A model generated the notes under the pieces. It was not told the origin of the DNA. It did not search any database and saw nothing but the letters and a program-made list of their open reading frames with translations. Shown piece after piece: positions 7,456 to 47,907 of a stretch of 49,627 bases of DNA. Source of the stretch: a virus; IMG/VR virus record IMGVR_UViG_3300026512_000018, positions 1-49,627 of that record, one strand, 5' to 3'. The position numbers and the translations under genes were made by a program. Position 1 is the stretch's first letter, and each line of letters begins with the position of its first letter.

Positions 7456-7738
7456 AGTTGCGAGACTACTTAACGGAAAAAGATTAGAACGAACAAATTA
7501 TGGAAAATCGCAACCAGATGTTATTACTGATAAGTTTGTTGTGGAGTGTAAATCAAGAAAAACACTTCCCGTTCTTTTTTTAAAGGCGTGGAAACAGGTG
7601 TTAGGATATATAAAAGAATACAAAGATAAAATACCTATTGTGATTTTTCATCAATCGAGAAAAAGAGGCTACGGAAAATACTTCGTAATCATAGAGTTAA
7701 GCGACTTTCTTAAACTTCTTAATAAGGGGGACAAATGA
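7427..7738 (+). CDS. PD-(D/E)XK nuclease, Holliday-junction-resolvase-like
   Basis: 103-aa nuclease-like protein. N-terminal NTEIEVARLL helix, then PDVITDKFVVECKSRK at about 26-41, giving the D...ExK catalytic pattern of Hjc/VRR-type restriction-like nucleases. Length and layout match archaeal and phage Hjc-type resolvases, which cut branched DNA before packaging. It starts after a GGAGG inside the upstream gene and overlaps the methyltransferase start by four bases. Resolvase versus other structure-specific nuclease cannot be settled by eye. Confidence 0.65.
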   Translation: MKAWKNTEIEVARLLNGKRLERTNYGKSQPDVITDKFVVECKSRKTLPVLFLKAWKQVLGYIKEYKDKIPIVIFHQSRKRGYGKYFVIIELSDFLKLLNKGDK

Positions 7739-8700
7739 GAGTTTTAAGTTTGTTTGATGGGATAAGTGTCGGTAGAGTAGCCTTACAGCGTGCGGGTATA
7801 AGAATTGACGAATATTATGCAAGCGAAATTGATAAGAACGCAATTGCAGTTGCGAAGTATAATTTTCCTGATACTAAATTTATTGGAGACGTAAGAAATA
7901 TCGATGGTAATAAATTTAAAGGAATTGATTTATTGATTGGAGGTAGTCCTTGTCAAAACTTTTCCTTTATCGGGTTAAAACAAGGAATGATTACAAAAAC
8001 TCAAATAGAAGTAACAACATTAGAGCAATATTTAAAATTAAAAAGTGAAGGTTTTGAATTCGACGGGCAATCGTATCTATTTTGGGAATATGTTAGAATT
8101 TTAAGAGAGGCTCAACCTAAATGGTTTTTATTAGAAAATGTAAGAATGGCAAAAAAATGGAAAAAAGTAATAAGCGATACTTTGGGAGTTAAGCCTGTTA
8201 TGATAAATTCTGCATTAGTCTCCGCACAAAATCGAAGAAGATTATATTGGACAAACATTCCAATTAGCGGATTACCAGAAGATAAAGGAATTATAATCAA
8301 GGATATTTTAGAAGATGAAGTTGATGAAAAGTATTTTATAAACAAACCTTTTAAATACTTACCAGAAAAGCCTGGTTTTATAATTGACCCCTACAATAAA
8401 AGAAATGTGGAAAATGGAAAAGCAACTACATTAAGAACTAATTATAGTAATGGTAACTGCTGGATCAATGAAAGATTTAAAGAGAATTCGGCATCTAATC
8501 TTAGAAAATTAAAAATCAGAAAACTCACACCATTAGAATGTGAAAGGTTACAAACTCTCCCCGATAATTATACGAGATTTGGTAACTTTGATGGAAAAAT
8601 TAAAAAAATCTCTAAAACACAGAGATATAAAATGATAGGAAATGCTTGGACGGCAGATGTTTTAGCGTGGATATTTTCACACTTGACAAAAAAACAATAA
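7735..8700 (+). CDS. C5 cytosine DNA methyltransferase
   Basis: 321-aa modification enzyme that transfers methyl from S-adenosylmethionine to cytosine C5. Motif I LFDGISVGR is at the N-terminus, motif IV GGSPCQ near 69-74 with catalytic Cys73, motif VI ENV at 134-136, motif VIII QNRRR at 165-169, and motif X GNAW near the end. The target-recognition region (~185-265) is short. No partner restriction enzyme is seen, so it probably protects phage DNA from host restriction. Complete; overlaps the upstream nuclease gene by four bases. Confidence 0.93.
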   Translation: MRVLSLFDGISVGRVALQRAGIRIDEYYASEIDKNAIAVAKYNFPDTKFIGDVRNIDGNKFKGIDLLIGGSPCQNFSFIGLKQGMITKTQIEVTTLEQYLKLKSEGFEFDGQSYLFWEYVRILREAQPKWFLLENVRMAKKWKKVISDTLGVKPVMINSALVSAQNRRRLYWTNIPISGLPEDKGIIIKDILEDEVDEKYFINKPFKYLPEKPGFIIDPYNKRNVENGKATTLRTNYSNGNCWINERFKENSASNLRKLKIRKLTPLECERLQTLPDNYTRFGNFDGKIKKISKTQRYKMIGNAWTADVLAWIFSHLTKKQ

Positions 8701-17104: not shown

Positions 17105-17851
17105 ATGGAAAAAGTAAAACACATAGTTAACTTTTCTGGCGGCAAAGATAGCACGGCAATGCTTTTCAAAATGCTTGAAAATGGCTATAAAATAGATTAT
17201 ATTGTATTTTGTAATACGGGAGTTGAGTTCCCAGAAATGTATAAACACATAGAACAAGTAAAAAAAGAGTTAATAAAGTTTAATTTAAAAATTATCGAAT
17301 TAAAGCCAAATCACTCTTTTTTTTATTGGCTAACTGATTATAAAAGAACAAGAGGGGAATATAAGGGATTGCCTTACGGTTTTCCGTCTTGGAAAAACCG
17401 ATGGTGCACCACTAACATAAAATTACGACCGTTGTTTAAGTTTGAACAACAATTAATTAAAAAGGGCTTTACGATTATCTCATATGTCGGGTATAGTTTA
17501 GACGAAACGAAGAGGGCTACTAAAATTAAAAAGAGGGAAACAAAGAACAAGAAATTTAAATTCCCGCTAATAGAGGATTTCAAAATGACAGAAAAAGATT
17601 GTTTGAAATATTCTTACAATTTAGGGTTTGATTGGGACGGTGTTTACGACAAAGTATCAAGATTATCGTGCTATATATGCCCTTTTAGTAGATTGAGCGA
17701 AATCAAATTTTTGATGACTGAACACCCCGATTTATGGGAAAAAATAAAACAAACAGAGGCAGATTTAAAGAAGCGAGGCATACCTTATTGGAAGTTTACT
17801 TCTCGATATTCGTGTGAAGAAATAGAGCAACTGATAGCAAAACAAAAATAA
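17105..17851 (+). CDS. PP-loop ATPase, PAPS-reductase/DndC-like
   Basis: 248 aa with the PP-loop SGGKDST at 11-17, the FCNTGVEFPE strand-loop near 45, RWCTTNIK near 103 and a CxxC (SCYICPF) near 200. This is the phosphoadenosine phosphosulfate reductase-type fold used by sulfonucleotide reductases, DndC and nucleotide-modifying enzymes. In phages such proteins are common and mostly uncharacterised. No DndDE partners are seen. It could modify nucleotides or nucleic acid with sulfur; that is inference. Preceded by AAGGGAG. Confidence 0.75.
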   Translation: MEKVKHIVNFSGGKDSTAMLFKMLENGYKIDYIVFCNTGVEFPEMYKHIEQVKKELIKFNLKIIELKPNHSFFYWLTDYKRTRGEYKGLPYGFPSWKNRWCTTNIKLRPLFKFEQQLIKKGFTIISYVGYSLDETKRATKIKKRETKNKKFKFPLIEDFKMTEKDCLKYSYNLGFDWDGVYDKVSRLSCYICPFSRLSEIKFLMTEHPDLWEKIKQTEADLKKRGIPYWKFTSRYSCEEIEQLIAKQK

Positions 17852-17871: not shown

Positions 17872-18306
17872 ATGATATATTTAATTATAGGAATATTATT
17901 AATAATAACCCCTTTTATTGCTCTTATAATTAATAAACAGAGAGACACAGATGAACCTGCTTTTATTTTTTGGGGAATTGTCTTTATTATTGTATTTTTT
18001 ATTATGATGATATTAGGAATAACAACTTATCCTCGTTTGCTTTCCGAAAGAGCAGCCTGTATTGGATATAAAAATGCAATCACGGAAACGGCTAAAATTT
18101 ACACAACTACAATTCCTGTTCAATCTATAAGTCAATTAACGCAATATGCAAGTTTAGTAGCAACCTATAATTCTGATTTACAAACAGCCCTAACGAAAAA
18201 GAAAATGTTAACGAGTAAAATATTTGGTTCTGCATTATTTATAAGCGACAAAATTTATGATTTGGATTTTATAGGAGGTGCAAATGTTAACAGCAGAGGA
18301 AATTAA
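17872..18306 (+). CDS. membrane protein, 144 aa
   Basis: Two strongly hydrophobic segments (about residues 2-20 and 31-52), then a soluble helical region with Thr/Gln-rich sequence. After GGGAGGT. No family recognised; perhaps an envelope-associated early protein. Confidence 0.6.
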   Translation: MIYLIIGILLIITPFIALIINKQRDTDEPAFIFWGIVFIIVFFIMMILGITTYPRLLSERAACIGYKNAITETAKIYTTTIPVQSISQLTQYASLVATYNSDLQTALTKKKMLTSKIFGSALFISDKIYDLDFIGGANVNSRGN

Positions 18307-18781
18307 AAAAGCGGGGCTTATAACCCCGCTTGTGGAAAAAGTTAAATGTGGTTTATCATATGGATTAGAGCCTAACGGATATACTATAAGATTAAGTAAT
18401 GAATTTTGGTATCCAAAAGAAAAGCAAATTCTTGACCCATTAAATAAAAAAGGTGAGTTAGAAGTAGTTAAAACTAATATTTTTATTTTAAAGCCGAAAC
18501 ATTATGTTTTGGGAAAGGCTATTGAGTATATTAATTTACCTAAAAATATAAGTGCAATAGCGTTGACGAAGTCATCTTACGCTCGTATGGGCGTATTTGC
18601 CAATATAACAACAATAGACGCTGGCTGGCACGGATACTTAACAATAGAAATTGCTAATCTTGGAAATAATCCTGTTAAAATCTATGCTAATTATGGTATA
18701 GCAGAGATATTGTTCTTTGAACACAAGAATACGCAAGGGTATGAAGGCAACTATCAAGATTTAACAACGATTAAAATTTAG
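18284..18781 (+). CDS. dCTP deaminase / dUTPase family protein
   Basis: 165 aa. The trimer-forming fold is visible from TKSSYARMGV near 103-112 and TIDAGWHGYLTIEIAN near 118-133, matching the conserved RSSxAR and DAGW(H/E)G blocks of dCTP deaminases. The enzyme makes dUMP for thymidylate synthesis or removes dUTP, and fits the ThyX and ribonucleotide reductase genes on the other strand. ATG 18284 follows GGAGGTG. Deaminase versus dUTPase activity is not decided. A GC hairpin lies at 18309-18331. Confidence 0.85.
   Translation: MLTAEEIKKAGLITPLVEKVKCGLSYGLEPNGYTIRLSNEFWYPKEKQILDPLNKKGELEVVKTNIFILKPKHYVLGKAIEYINLPKNISAIALTKSSYARMGVFANITTIDAGWHGYLTIEIANLGNNPVKIYANYGIAEILFFEHKNTQGYEGNYQDLTTIKI
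18305..18331 (-). terminator. Terminator-like hairpin on the antisense strand within the dCTP deaminase gene
   Basis: AAGCGGGG (18309-18316) pairs with CCCCGCTT (18324-18331). On the minus strand the stem runs into six T residues (18310-18305). Same geometry as the element at 16756-16790. Confidence 0.45.
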
Positions 18782-19166: not shown

Positions 19167-19197
19167 AAAAAGCCCGCTTTATGCGGGCTATTTTTTT
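19165..19197. terminator. Bidirectional intrinsic terminator between converging units
   Basis: AGCCCGC (19171-19177) pairs with GCGGGCT (19183-19189), with six A on the left and seven T on the right, so it works for both strands. It ends the rightward early block and the leftward late and nucleotide-metabolism block. Confidence 0.92.
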
Positions 19198-19536
19198 ATC
19201 TATCTCTATACTGATTTAGGTCATAAGATTTTCTTTGTTTAAATTCTTTTTTCTTTCCTTTGTTAAAACTATCAATAGGTCTTATGAACATTCTGTTGCT
19301 TTTATGACCTCTAATGAGGCGGTAGCAAATTTCTTTGCTACTCTGCATATTGCTATGCAGTTCGGACTGTTGCTTCACTCAATATGAGTGCCGTTTCGTT
19401 CAGTCTCTCACGGTGGGTTTTACCCCTTCCGCCTCGTTGTCCCATAGGGAGTTCCGAGTCAATTAGAAACGGTTTAAGGTGAGCATCATCTACCCACCAC
19501 TCTCGTAAATTTAATAAGTTTTTGTTTCTTCTTCAT
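19196..19536 (-). CDS. Split glycyl-radical domain of class III ribonucleotide reductase, interrupted by a group I intron
   Basis: The coding exons are 19536-19492 and 19288-19196. Exon 1 (15 codons, after GGGAGGG) ends ...KFTRVVG; exon 2 starts FIRPIDSFNKGKKKEFKQRK. Joined they give a 45-aa protein with RVVG-F-I-RP followed by the NxGKxxEFxxRxxY pattern, which is the C-terminal glycyl-radical segment of anaerobic ribonucleotide reductase. Gly15 would be the radical site. The nrdD gene two genes upstream lacks this segment. The arrangement resembles stand-alone glycyl-radical spare parts such as GrcA. It must associate with NrdD in trans. Motifs are direct; trans-assembly is inference. Confidence 0.8.
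19289..19491 (-). ncRNA. Group I self-splicing intron, ~203 nt
   Basis: Hand fold on the minus strand. P1: exon GGUGGGU pairs with GCUCACC (19484-19478), with U.G at the splice site. P3: CCGUUUC (19472-19466) with GAAACGG (19397-19391). P4: CUCG/CGAG. P5: hairpin UCCCUAUGGGA. P6/P6a: GGGGUAAAACCC. P7: GACUG (19405-19401) with CAGUC (19369-19365). P8: CACUCA-UAU-UGAGUG. P9: 7-bp stem with GCAA loop (19360-19343). P9.1: 8-bp stem with GAAA loop (19341-19322). The end is ...AGAAUG, final G 19289. P10: intron AUGA with exon UCAU. It carries no ORF and is near the smallest group I size. Confidence 0.82.
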
Positions 19537-19537
19537 A

Positions 19538-20131
19538 TTATCCCTCCCAATACTGTTTATATTTAATATCAAATGTAATGGGTGCTATCTCTGAAAGTTT
19601 ATAATAAATAGCCCACGCAACTTTTCTAATTTCCCATTGTGCCGTCTTATCCATTCTTAATTTCAAGAAATGCAACCACGCTCGTGCGTTTCCACTAACA
19701 GTAAGAGCAGTAGAAACGCCTTGTGGTAGAATAAAACGAGCGTCTTCTTTTCTTACTCCGTTTAAAATCATCTCATTATATAACTGAATTGCCTGTTGCG
19801 TTAACTTATAATATTTATCTGCATACCCTTTTAATTTATCTGGGATAACAAAATCATTAACTTGCGTATATCTTTGTGATTGTTGAACAAATGATAAATG
19901 TCTATGTCTAACAAATTGATGAGAGCAAACTCTTGAAATTCCACTTACGTTAAATGTGAAATATGCGTGTTCAAACACGGAATAATGTCCTGACTTAAAT
20001 GCAACTTCAATTAAATGAGAAACTCTACGCTTATCTATATCAATAACAGGAGTGCTTGAATGGCTCTGTCTCATTGCTGTCGCAATGATTTTGTCTGGGT
20101 TCGACGTATAATTTAATAATTTAACTTTCAT
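19538..20131 (-). CDS. thyX: Flavin-dependent thymidylate synthase ThyX
   Basis: 197 aa, makes dTMP from dUMP using methylene-tetrahydrofolate, FAD and NADPH. The ThyX signature RHRHLSFVQQSQR is at 75-87, followed by YTQ; the C-terminal FLKLRMDKTAQWEIRKVA block is complete. Slightly shorter than cellular ThyX (about 215-250 aa) but nothing essential is missing. It sits between nrdD and its detached radical domain, so its insertion may have split nrdD. Confidence 0.97.
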   Translation of the reverse strand: MKVKLLNYTSNPDKIIATAMRQSHSSTPVIDIDKRRVSHLIEVAFKSGHYSVFEHAYFTFNVSGISRVCSHQFVRHRHLSFVQQSQRYTQVNDFVIPDKLKGYADKYYKLTQQAIQLYNEMILNGVRKEDARFILPQGVSTALTVSGNARAWLHFLKLRMDKTAQWEIRKVAWAIYYKLSEIAPITFDIKYKQYWEG

Positions 20132-20132
20132 C

Positions 20133-22835
20133 TTATACTCCTATAATAAATTCAGGACCATTCTCATTATCTTTATTACTTTCTGCTTCGCAATAAGGGC
20201 AATAATCAAAATTACCGGGAATGTATCCGTGTATGGGACATATTCCAAAAGTGGGAGTTATCGTGAAATACGGAATATCAGTTCGCTCAATAATTGTTTT
20301 AATAAATGCTCGAAGACTATTTAAGGAGGGAGTTTCATCTAAAAAGAAATGAACAACAGACCCCGATGTAAACTTGGAGACAAGTTGGTCTTGATTATCT
20401 GCTAATTTGAACGGGTTGTTGGTTGAGGATACGTGAGGAAGAACACCGTTAGTAAAATAAGGCGTCTCTTCATCTGCCGTTATTATATCTGGGTGCAACT
20501 CTTTCGCCTTCATAGCGAGACGATACGAAGCCCCTTCGGCGGGAGTTTCTTCAAGATTAAATAAAAACTCATATTTTTCTTGTAATTTTAACTCTTTATC
20601 GAGCATAAAGTCTAAAACTTTTTGAGCGAACTCTTTATGAGTAAACATATTATATTCTTTTCCAAAGAGATTTTTAATAGTTTCTTCCATTCCTATCATT
20701 CCAATAGTCGAGAAATGATTTGCCGTATAACTTCCATATCTCTTTTTTACATCTCCATAATAATAGGCTATATACGGGGTCAAACCTTTTTCAATTGTAT
20801 CTTCTACAATCTCTCGTTTTATTTTATGATACTCTCCCATTTTCTCCATTATATTATCTAATTTTTGAAAGAATTCTGCTTCACTATTACTCTCGTATGC
20901 AAGTAAAGGAAGATTAATTGTTGAAACAGCCACCGAACCCGTTTTTTCAGACGAACCAAACAAGCCTCCCGTAGAGTGATGATGTTTTCTTAATTGAGAC
21001 AAATCTAAACGAAGACGGCAATTATGTGTTAAAACTCCACTTGTCCCAACAGTAAACATAGGCACATCATCTATAACTTCAAAACAATAAGCGGTGTCTG
21101 TTCTGTTATTATATATTATTTTGTCTATTTTATACCAAATATAGCCGTCCTCTTCGAAATACTTATCGCCGTAGTTTTTATAAGTTAAGGTATTAAACGT
21201 AACTACGTAGTTTGTGTTATGTCCGAATCTCCCCTCTCTGTTATCTTCAAATATAGAAGTAATCATTCCAAGAGATGATGCAAGCATAATAAGACTGTCT
21301 TTCATTTTAGGAGATGAAGTTGAAATTCTATATATATTTTGAGTTGTAACGCCATCTGTGGCGTTATAACCATCTAATAATCCTTGTCTAAATTCTTTAC
21401 TCATTTCAAAAACAATTCCATTTAGTTCTTTATCAAGAGCATTGCTCCCATTTACGAATTGTGCAACATACGAAATTAGAGCGGGAGATTTTGCTATCAC
21501 AAATACTACTTTATCATTATTTTTAATGTTAATTTGTGTAGAAGATGTAAAATATTTAACTATATACTCTTTAAGTTTGTTTACAACCGAGAGTTTTGTT
21601 GTATTATTAAGAGAAAAAATTACTTGATATTCATCTTTACTCCCATCACCAGCATACGCTCCAACAATATAGCCTAATTCGTAATTCCCTCCTTCACCAT
21701 CATAGGCTTTTATAGAATATGGAAGATAATACCCTTCTTTTAACTGCTGCCCCGTTAATTCTTCTATTGGCAAGCCTTTTTCTTTTTTAACGAAATTTAG
21801 ATGGTTTACCGACATTTTTATTTGGTGATGATTTGCTAACTTAACAGTCATCATTTCTTGATTTGGGTGAACTTGAAATTTTCCGTGAACAAATTTTCCA
21901 TCGCTATAAATTTCATATATATCTTTGCCGCCAAGTTTACCAATTTCAATAAGTTTTAGATTACCTCTGTCTCTAATAAGAACTTTCTCGTGTTTATCAA
22001 GCGGACACATTGACCTTGCGTCATTAGGGTCTAAAACAGAATTTACATAATTGGCAAAATAGAAGTTTCCATATTTTTTAGTATTTTCTAATACTAAATC
22101 AAAGAGTTCAGAATTAAAATCAAAATCTTTACTAATATTAATTGTAGGAATAGGGAAAGTAAAAGTTTGTCCCATTCCATCGCCTTCCGTTAATATCTCT
22201 GTGAAGGCTTTAAATATCATTAACCTTTCTTTTTTAAAGTCTTTATATGTTTTATCTTTTAAATATTTACCAGCATAAACGACTATCGTATCATCAAGGT
22301 CTTTATTATAACCGTCAAGCGTAAGATTGGTAAAGGGAGATTGTGAACCTGCTCTTAATGGTTGATTGAGCGAATATATAAAATTTTGAAGTGCCTGTTT
22401 TACTTCGTTATAAGATAATTTATCATAATATACATAAGGACTTAAAAATGTATCAAAATTACTAAAAGATTGAGCGCCAGCACTTTCAGTTTGAAGCAAA
22501 AAGAAAAAGTTCATTATTTGTCCAAGTAGAGCGTCAAAATGTTTAGCGGGTTTTGACCTTACAGTGCCGATTTTTCCATTCCATAAGCCTTTAAGAATTA
22601 AATCTTGAAGACTATGTCCCATACAGTAAAGAGTAATTCCCATACCTAAATCGTGTAAATGAACATAGCCCTTATTGTGTAATTCTCGAATGTCTTCTGG
22701 TAATTTTTCAAGAGTATAAAGTGCCATATCTTTATCGGCGACATAAGAACGCATTGCACCAATACTAATTATTGAATTAGCATTTTCATTTTTTCTCCAA
22801 TCACTTAAATATTCTTGTGTGAAATTTTCCCGCAT
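20133..22835 (-). CDS. nrdD: Anaerobic ribonucleotide reductase (class III) catalytic part, with intein, lacking the glycyl-radical end
   Basis: 900 codons; 571 residues after removal of a 329-aa intein. Reduces ribonucleotides without oxygen. It has the class III N-terminal barrel (HLHDLG near 59-64, LYCMGH with a cysteine at 71, QSFSNFDTF) and the active-site motif SMC at 275-277. After the intein come CRLRLDL and a C-terminal zinc ribbon CPIHGY...CPYC. No ATP cone is present. It stops at ...GPEFIIGV with no RVxGY motif, so it has no radical glycine of its own; that piece is at 19196-19536. Its start overlaps nrdG by 31 bases. Confidence 0.93.
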   Translation of the reverse strand: MRENFTQEYLSDWRKNENANSIISIGAMRSYVADKDMALYTLEKLPEDIRELHNKGYVHLHDLGMGITLYCMGHSLQDLILKGLWNGKIGTVRSKPAKHFDALLGQIMNFFFLLQTESAGAQSFSNFDTFLSPYVYYDKLSYNEVKQALQNFIYSLNQPLRAGSQSPFTNLTLDGYNKDLDDTIVVYAGKYLKDKTYKDFKKERLMIFKAFTEILTEGDGMGQTFTFPIPTINISKDFDFNSELFDLVLENTKKYGNFYFANYVNSVLDPNDARSMCPLDKHEKVLIRDRGNLKLIEIGKLGGKDIYEIYSDGKFVHGKFQVHPNQEMMTVKLANHHQIKMSVNHLNFVKKEKGLPIEELTGQQLKEGYYLPYSIKAYDGEGGNYELGYIVGAYAGDGSKDEYQVIFSLNNTTKLSVVNKLKEYIVKYFTSSTQINIKNNDKVVFVIAKSPALISYVAQFVNGSNALDKELNGIVFEMSKEFRQGLLDGYNATDGVTTQNIYRISTSSPKMKDSLIMLASSLGMITSIFEDNREGRFGHNTNYVVTFNTLTYKNYGDKYFEEDGYIWYKIDKIIYNNRTDTAYCFEVIDDVPMFTVGTSGVLTHNCRLRLDLSQLRKHHHSTGGLFGSSEKTGSVAVSTINLPLLAYESNSEAEFFQKLDNIMEKMGEYHKIKREIVEDTIEKGLTPYIAYYYGDVKKRYGSYTANHFSTIGMIGMEETIKNLFGKEYNMFTHKEFAQKVLDFMLDKELKLQEKYEFLFNLEETPAEGASYRLAMKAKELHPDIITADEETPYFTNGVLPHVSSTNNPFKLADNQDQLVSKFTSGSVVHFFLDETPSLNSLRAFIKTIIERTDIPYFTITPTFGICPIHGYIPGNFDYCPYCEAESNKDNENGPEFIIGV
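21021..22007 (-). mobile_element. LAGLIDADG intein inside NrdD
   Basis: Encodes residues 277-605 of the NrdD precursor. It starts with Cys (CPLDKHEKVLIRD), has a splicing block B-like region near 340 (MSVNHL), and ends GVLTHN followed by Cys606. Two LAGLIDADG-type motifs are visible, LGYIVGAYAGDG at 387-398 and QGLLDGYNATDG at 484-495, so a homing endonuclease is probably intact. Splicing would rejoin SM to CRLRLDL. Inteins favour such catalytic motifs. Confidence 0.93.
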
Positions 22836-23500
22836 ATAGCCTCCATTTCTTTTTTAATTTTAGTTTCAAAAGTTTCTGCTTCCATTGAGGTGCTATCCTC
22901 AAACTTAAATGATGGGTCTAATGTGTTTTGATAAAGTCCTTGTTGAACGTGATAATGATTAGCGTCTGTGAATTCACATAATTCTTTTGCCATTTGTTGT
23001 AGTAAATCATCGTGATAACCTTTTAAATAAGTTGTTCTAATAATATAATTCGATTTATGAATTAGTCGAACGCTTTCAAGATACTTATTTTTATCAAATG
23101 GTTTTCTAATTAGGTCGGAGTATTTATCGAATGTAGTTTTATAGTCAACAGCCCAAAAATCTACGTATGAAAGTAAATCATCAATAACTTCTGGATTACT
23201 TCCATTGGTGGCAATCATTATGCGAAAACCTTTATTAAAAAGTTCTTTAACAAAGTCAGACAAGTCTCGATAAATGGTAGGCTCTCCGCCGATTATCTCG
23301 ATATGATTTATACCAAATCTATCTTTATCGTATTCTAATTTTTCAATAACTTTATCTTCTGAAATTAATCGGTCGGGCTGTTTTAAGAGGTCTCTCTGAA
23401 AACAATATCTACATCGCCAATTACAACCATAAGTGAAAACAATATTAGTCAAAAAACCGTCCCATTCAATTAGGGACGGCTGTATATCTCTGATTAACAT
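22805..23500 (-). CDS. nrdG: Anaerobic ribonucleotide reductase activating enzyme, radical SAM
   Basis: 231-aa radical-SAM activase that abstracts hydrogen from the NrdD glycine. The cluster motif is C26-x3-C30-x2-C33 (CNWRCRYC), followed by IIGGEPT near 67-73. Longer than classic NrdG (about 155-175 aa), with a C-terminal extension. Its target glycine is here on a separate polypeptide. A terminator-like hairpin lies within codons 8-17 on the coding strand. Confidence 0.9.
   Translation of the reverse strand: MLIRDIQPSLIEWDGFLTNIVFTYGCNWRCRYCFQRDLLKQPDRLISEDKVIEKLEYDKDRFGINHIEIIGGEPTIYRDLSDFVKELFNKGFRIMIATNGSNPEVIDDLLSYVDFWAVDYKTTFDKYSDLIRKPFDKNKYLESVRLIHKSNYIIRTTYLKGYHDDLLQQMAKELCEFTDANHYHVQQGLYQNTLDPSFKFEDSTSMEAETFETKIKKEMEAICGKISHKNI
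23451..23479 (-). promoter_or_regulatory. Possible intragenic attenuator at the start of nrdG
   Basis: On the coding strand CCGTCCC (23479-23473), a 9-nt loop and GGGACGG (23463-23457) are followed by TTTTTT (23456-23451). This is an intrinsic-terminator shape inside nrdG codons 8-17. Translating ribosomes would mask it, so it could reduce transcription of nrdG-nrdD-thyX when translation lags. Function is inferred. Confidence 0.4.
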
Positions 23501-47472: not shown

Positions 47473-47907
47473 ATGAAATACAAAATCAAAACTTTTCAGG
47501 TGCAGTTAGAACTGCACGAGAAAGGAGAAAAAATAACAGACGCCCCCGAAGCCGTCAAAATTGCCCGGTCTATTTTCGACACGCTTGACGCCGATCGAGA
47601 GCATTTTGTTGCTCTGTTTCTTAATAGAGCGAACAAAGTTGAAGGATACAAGGTTTTATTTTCCGGGTCTCCTAATCAGACACCTGTTTTTATTCAAACT
47701 CTATTTAGGTATGCTTTGCTTGCAAACGCTTCTGCAATAATCGTTTGCCATAATCACCCGGCTGGTTCGTTAAAACCCAGCCCCGAAGACATACAAATAA
47801 CAGAGAAAATAAGAGAAGCAGGGGAACTTTTAGGCGTTCCTCTACTCGATCATATTATTTTGACAGATGACGATTATTTGTCAATGCAAGCGGAGGGGTG
47901 GGAATAA
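47473..47907 (+). CDS. radC: RadC/JAB-type metalloprotein
   Basis: 144 aa consisting only of the JAB (MPN+) domain. The metal motif is HNHPAGSLKPSPED (His-x-His...Ser...Asp), with an upstream Glu in the preceding helix. It lacks the helix-hairpin-helix part of chromosomal RadC, as is usual in phages and plasmids. Its role is not established; suggested links are DNA repair and anti-restriction. TAATG overlap with the next gene. Confidence 0.88.
   Translation: MKYKIKTFQVQLELHEKGEKITDAPEAVKIARSIFDTLDADREHFVALFLNRANKVEGYKVLFSGSPNQTPVFIQTLFRYALLANASAIIVCHNHPAGSLKPSPEDIQITEKIREAGELLGVPLLDHIILTDDDYLSMQAEGWE

Follow-up and report, generated by a model that had tools for sequence, protein, structure and literature searches.

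Ribonucleotide reductase (RNR) is an essential enzyme, and its class III form has been described with the radical glycine in the catalytic chain. The question addressed here is how such an enzyme could be made by a virus whose nrdD gene ends before this glycine. The gene lies in IMG/VR virus record IMGVR_UViG_3300026512_000018, a contig of 49,627 bases that was analyzed at its full length (the window). On the minus strand, nrdG, nrdD, thyX and a small gene, which comprises 45 codons once its exons are joined, follow each other closely spaced and in this order in one operon. It is concluded that the locus most probably encodes a two-chain class III (anaerobic) RNR, in which the NrdD core and a 45-residue radical chain act in trans; the probability of this is put at about 0.88.

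The NrdD protein has 900 residues with an intein and 572 residues once this is removed (with the intein start at proline that is described below). The core matched the Pfam family NRDD with an E value of 4e-133 over profile positions 1-531 of 562. It ends with ...CPIHGYIPGNFDYCPYCEAESNKDNENGPEFIIGV, the tail after the zinc ribbon being EAESNKDNENGPEFIIGV, and RVxGY is absent, as had been noticed when the locus was first read without database searches (the sequence-only reading). The finger-loop cysteine pair could be identified in the core (SMC...CRLRL, flanking the intein; most relatives have SMCCRLR). The glycyl-radical motif of class III enzymes is not in the NrdD chain and is encoded by a separate gene. 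In relatives, the same radical segment is fused to the core (for example ...SRVVGYLSPLSNWNDGKKTEFEYRKAFKI in locus L003). The record holds a single NRDD gene, the two NRDD matches obtained for it being the halves on either side of the intein. No full-length NrdD was found elsewhere in the record, nor a second radical glycine at the C-terminus of the core, both of which the sequence-only reading had named as findings that would speak against a split. The C-terminal glycine in FIIGV was rejected as radical site, because its G-V codons overlap the Shine-Dalgarno (SD) sequence of thyX and because FIIGV comes without the invariant Arg, Pro, Asn-x-Gly-Lys, Glu and Arg of a radical segment.

The missing segment is encoded by the small gene beyond thyX. 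Removal of positions 19491-19289 joins the codon GGT (glycine) to TTC and results in a 45-residue protein, MKKKQKLIKFTRVVGFIRPIDSFNKGKKKEFKQRKSYDLNQYRDR, which matched NRDD positions 533-562 (E 2e-5) and TIGR02487 positions 551-581 (E 6e-6), as the earlier identification of this gene with the missing radical segment had led one to expect. The NRDD matches of the core and the small protein are complementary and do not overlap. The unspliced frame yields only 16 residues, MKKKQKLIKFTRVVGR. No homology to the Gly_radical family of pyruvate formate-lyase (PFL) type was detected in the small protein: only NRDD was matched in Pfam and only NrdD-type models in NCBIfam. No family model in Pfam, NCBIfam or PHROGs is specific to such radical genes of 40-60 residues, and they are easily skipped in annotation.

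The borders of the intron were supported by both protein and RNA. When 3598 single-deletion joins were scored against a profile of NrdD radical segments, the top join reached 54.2 bits (with one tie that gives the identical product) and was located at the radical-glycine codon, so that exon 1 ends with U and the intron with G. This cut is, to the base, the one expected from group I intron rules. P1 (19498-19492/19484-19478, GGUGGGU/GCUCACC) has a U-G pair at the 5' splice site, and the terminal base of the intron is G. A pseudoknotted core is formed by P3 (19472-19466/19397-19391), P7 (19405-19401/19369-19365) and P8 (19390-19386/19380-19376); P4, P5, P6 and P9 to P9.2 could also be identified, with a GCAA loop on P9 and a GAAA loop on P9.1. 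The topology filter for P3/P7/P8 was passed by 1 of 1000 dinucleotide shuffles. Because the protein profile, the U-G pair of P1, the P3/P7/P8 pseudoknot and the GNRA loops fit jointly, chance is excluded as an explanation. The group I intron would be removed from the mRNA of the small gene by self-splicing. A search of phage DNA for sequences related to the intron returned short chance-like pieces only.

The finger loop of NrdD is interrupted as well. The window reads SMC-PLDKHEKVLI...THN-CRLRL, compared with SMCCRLR in nearly all relatives. The sequence-only reading was right in describing a truncated core, but had overlooked this intein at the cysteine pair. Matches of the insert to LAGLIDADG_3 and Intein_splicing are weak and below the curated cut-offs. 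An intein start at cysteine was rejected, as it leaves one finger-loop cysteine whereas nearly all relatives have two; since both are kept only when the intein starts at proline, this start was adopted in its place. From the alignment, the intein seems to begin with Pro instead of Cys or Ser. An intein at the same site, with the same SMC/PLD junction and 48% identity, is present in the nrdD of the Aenigmarchaeota locus L196, itself a split one, and the proline is therefore hardly a sequencing slip. Related inteins also occur in L217 and L105. In Nitratidesulfovibrio phage SRB7757 (L006, 2306-6081), an intein occupies this cysteine site of nrdD, and ahead of the C-terminal piece the gene is interrupted once more by a stretch that encodes an HNH-like homing endonuclease, a probable intron. 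In the window self-splicing elements sit in both radical-bearing sites of the enzyme, one at the finger-loop cysteines and one at the radical glycine. Conserved sites are a common location of mobile introns and inteins.

For nrdD, thyX and the small gene alike, a start of its own and a clear SD sequence could be identified (Table 1). The gene for the activase NrdG adjoins nrdD, as expected of a class III RNR.

Table 1. Features of the nrdD locus and their positions in the window.
Feature	Position	Strand	Evidence or remark
nrdG, radical-SAM activase	22805..23500	-	Pfam Radical_SAM E 9e-25; overlaps nrdD start
nrdD core, without glycyl-radical segment	20133..22835	-	NRDD 1-531/562; SD GGAGG
Intein of LAGLIDADG type, 328 aa, between the two finger-loop cysteines	21021..22004	-	SMC/P...THN/CRLRL; begins with Pro
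Zinc ribbon C-x2-H...C-x2-C (CPIH...CPYC), end of core	20190..20240	-	Sequence and alignment
thyX, between core gene and radical gene	19538..20131	-	Pfam Thy1 E 4e-62
Small radical-domain gene, whole, including intron	19536-19196	-	Adjoins thyX
Exon 1, MKKKQKLIKFTRVVG	19492..19536	-	Last codon GGT = radical glycine; SD GGGAGGG
Group I intron, 203 nt, no open reading frame	19289..19491	-	Directly after radical-glycine codon
Exon 2, FIRPIDSFNKGKKKEFKQRKSYDLNQYRDR and stop	19196..19288	-	NRDD 533-562
Terminator-like hairpin with T run	19171..19189	-	Directly 3' of small gene

In the proposed enzyme, the intein would first be spliced out of the large chain, which would then provide the ten-stranded barrel, the finger-loop cysteines and the zinc ribbon. 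The small chain, translated after self-splicing of the group I intron, would bring the RVVG-F radical loop and an anchoring segment, and would bind inside the core, beneath the finger loop and without a covalent link. Gly15 of this chain would lose a hydrogen to NrdG, and the resulting glycyl radical would be handed on to the finger-loop cysteine, so that nucleotides are reduced as they are by one-chain NrdD. In the latter, the radical glycine loop is held against the finger loop inside the barrel. Structures have been solved for NrdD of T4 (1H78) and of Thermotoga maritima (4COI). As the small chain keeps the same residues as the loop of one-chain NrdD, docking in the same way is the simplest assumption. 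By analogy with GrcA/YfiD and cleaved PFL, docking of the small protein and its activation by NrdG in trans are most likely. From the anatomy of the two genes with their intron and intein, the conservation of the radical segment and the recurrence of the split in cells and viruses (see below), we infer that intron and intein are spliced out, that the two chains bind in trans, and that the pair is activated by NrdG and catalytically active. The split class III RNR of the sequence-only reading thus stands as the best account of the locus, its assembly in trans being part of this inference.

To see the arrangement in a wider context, other viruses were considered. With the radical segment as query, 80 loci were retrieved from viral contigs (IMG/VR, L093-L172), and in more than 60 of them the segment is a stand-alone small frame of 41-264 residues. 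Many stand-alone viral frames have a CxxC...CxxC zinc-ribbon-like part ahead of the segment. Viral nrdD genes lacking RVxGY, a search for which had been proposed with the sequence-only reading, were found at eight loci (L014, L015, L016, L021, L040, L052, L078 and L118); in 8/8 the core ends at ∼530 and a separate open reading frame for the glycyl-radical domain (GRD) is present in the same locus. That the split could be an artefact of one assembly, a concern raised at the outset, is contradicted by dozens of other genomes in which NrdD is split at this very position. In ∼40 further viral records a radical gene was found with no core anywhere in the record; some of these are 60-90 kb in length, but the records are possibly incomplete, so that in some of them the core may lie outside the recorded sequence. 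The archaeal virus ANMV-1 (KP703175, L008 4698-5132) also has a stand-alone GRD and no core in 38 kb, its GRD protein of 145 residues having been deposited as 'anaerobic ribonucleoside triphosphate reductase'. Judging from their sequences, the products of such orphan viral genes may be spare parts for the NrdD of the host. Two loci showed in-frame stop codons: L069 (record G050) has a full-length NrdD match with three in-frame TAG, possibly due to TAG recoding, and the split core of L015 (record G045) has one in-frame TGA and one TAA.

In bacteria and archaea, 80 cellular loci were found with the stand-alone form as query, by which the counts are biased: 23 are split, 51 are one-chain, 5 contain the radical gene but no core, and 1 has both. 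The NRDD family was used for whole-genome surveys of 38 Halanaerobiales genomes and 60 sampled Elusimicrobiota genomes. NRDD was present in 36/38 Halanaerobiales genomes, full-length in 0, and a separate frame with the radical segment was identified in 34 of the 36, the two remaining cores being fragments. Among the Elusimicrobiota, NRDD was found in 45 of the 60 genomes and was split in 23 of these 45, every split one having a radical gene. Five Elusimicrobiota (G092, G105, G110, G123 and G137) have core and segment in one open frame with an extra linker of ∼45-75 residues; these are possible intermediates between the one-chain and the split form. Split NrdD also occurs in several archaea and Patescibacteria. 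In named strains of Halanaerobium saccharolyticum and Orenia metallireducens the order is core, nrdG, radical gene, and in some other genomes the core and radical genes are adjacent; the position of thyX between the two parts in the window is therefore incidental.

Class I/II RNR gave no match in 5 of the 15 split-NrdD genomes tested (three Elusimicrobia, one Woesearchaeota and one Patescibacteria), and in Halanaerobium such a match was weak and partial only. In genomes without a class I/II match the split enzyme is likely, from gene content, the sole reductase; as no class I/II RNR stands beside it, it presumably works. Full-length NrdD together with an extra stand-alone GRD was found in G077 (Desulfobacterales), G078 (Methanophagales) and G079 (Patescibacteria), and in four Elusimicrobiota (G091, G094, G103 and G106). 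This fits what is expected of a spare part or a provirus gene. The extra GRD of these seven genomes is a frame of ∼101-127 residues located elsewhere in the genome.

The stand-alone segments are under strong constraint. Across 90 distinct stand-alone segments, no exception was seen to the radical Gly, the Arg before it or the Pro, Lys, Glu and Arg that follow, and these positions are conserved at least as strongly there as across 125 one-chain segments. When the split state was mapped on a tree of 147 cores, 9 changes were required, of which at least 4 are forced by well-supported branches. A single origin of the split was rejected on this ground, and splitting or refusion therefore happened repeatedly, with the recurrent break point between the zinc ribbon and the radical loop. 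The NrdD of the window is on a long branch (1.9 changes per column) and is not placeable in the tree.

Other explanations of the locus were considered. The small protein might mainly be a GrcA-like spare part for host NrdD that has, for instance, been cleaved by oxygen at its radical glycine, the phage core being served secondarily or not at all. The viral records with a stand-alone GRD only, among them ANMV-1, and the cellular genomes that pair full-length NrdD with an extra GRD would agree with such a role. However, the phage has a core of its own without the segment, in the same operon as the small gene and nrdG, and this core would be dead otherwise, which makes a role mainly for the host unlikely. 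It is more improbable still that nrdD is decaying, broken by thyX, intein and intron into mere remnants, even though the core has a long branch and carries two self-splicing insertions: every frame is open and has its own ribosome-binding site, removal of the intron at the sites predicted from the ribozyme restores the invariant motif exactly, and the same split is fixed throughout one bacterial order. That the pieces are joined into one chain by RNA trans-splicing or a split intein is hardly credible, as the small gene contains every part of the group I intron from P1 to P9.2 and has its own SD and start, and as the core runs to a stop codon without half of an intron or of a split intein.

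Some observations weigh against the two-chain RNR. The Rfam group I intron model gave no match, neither at the gathering score nor at E values up to 10, and the assignment of the intron therefore rests on its anatomy; the model may miss it owing to its length of a mere 203 nt. Since the core sits on a long branch, its constraint may be relaxed in this particular phage. Several of the split genomes are metagenome-assembled and possibly incomplete.

The two-chain NrdD proposed here has the same barrel core, finger-loop cysteines, zinc ribbon and NrdG partner as one-chain NrdD (T. maritima 4COI, 8P23; phage T4 1H78). The radical motif RVxGY...WNxGKxxEFxxR is common to both, but is in the same chain there and in a separate gene product here. 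GrcA/YfiD and T4 Y06I are likewise small free glycyl-radical modules that serve a separate enzyme chain, and activation of YfiD is believed to take place while it is bound to cleaved PFL (Andorfer 2021, PMC8683613). GrcA/YfiD, however, belongs to the PFL family of glycyl-radical proteins and is a repair part for a cleaved enzyme, whereas the small phage protein belongs to NrdD by sequence and is apparently an obligatory subunit. NrdJa/NrdJb of Pseudomonas, called the only split RNR in a non-viral organism, is likewise encoded by two cistrons whose products assemble into one RNR, but it is a B12-dependent class II enzyme and its split-off part is the C-terminal redox tail and not the radical carrier (Crona 2015, PMC4520616). 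Phage RNR genes in pieces, with mobile elements nearby, are the Aeh1 nrdA with mobE and the phiAS4 nrdD in three fragments; in the passages considered, none of the split genes has the radical segment on its own gene (Dwivedi 2013, PMC3653736). A 2024 survey reports only the canonical glycine in class III RNRs (PMC11528403). In the open full-text literature, subscription papers and the RNR database being outside this scope, neither an NrdD with its radical segment split off nor a stand-alone radical protein of NrdD type was found to be described. The statement of the sequence-only reading that it knew of no described natural example holds to this extent, although the arrangement is widespread in cell and virus genomes. 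The split NrdD is apparently a widespread variant of a known enzyme that is new to the open literature covered here.

A natural two-chain RNR, apparently the sole RNR of some anaerobes, would be a clean system to study radical transfer between proteins and the exchange of radical cofactors. Only two spare-part proteins have been validated, both for PFL; others may exist, and whether non-PFL glycyl radical enzymes have them is an open question (Andorfer 2021, PMC8683613), for which the viral stand-alone segments are direct, testable candidates. On balance we favor, with some reserve, the view that the free GRD subunit is a general device, which would be an obligate subunit of the sole RNR in several anaerobic lineages and, as a lone viral gene, would re-arm, repair or take over the host NrdD. 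If true, spare-part proteins would exist for a glycyl radical enzyme other than PFL.

Concerning the phage itself, a terminase search for its relatives returned remote matches only. Outside the operon, the window contains genes that by sequence alone resemble those for a PAPS reductase (17105-17851), a dCTP deaminase/dUTPase (18278-18781), a DNA cytosine methyltransferase (7735-8700) and RadC (47473-47907).

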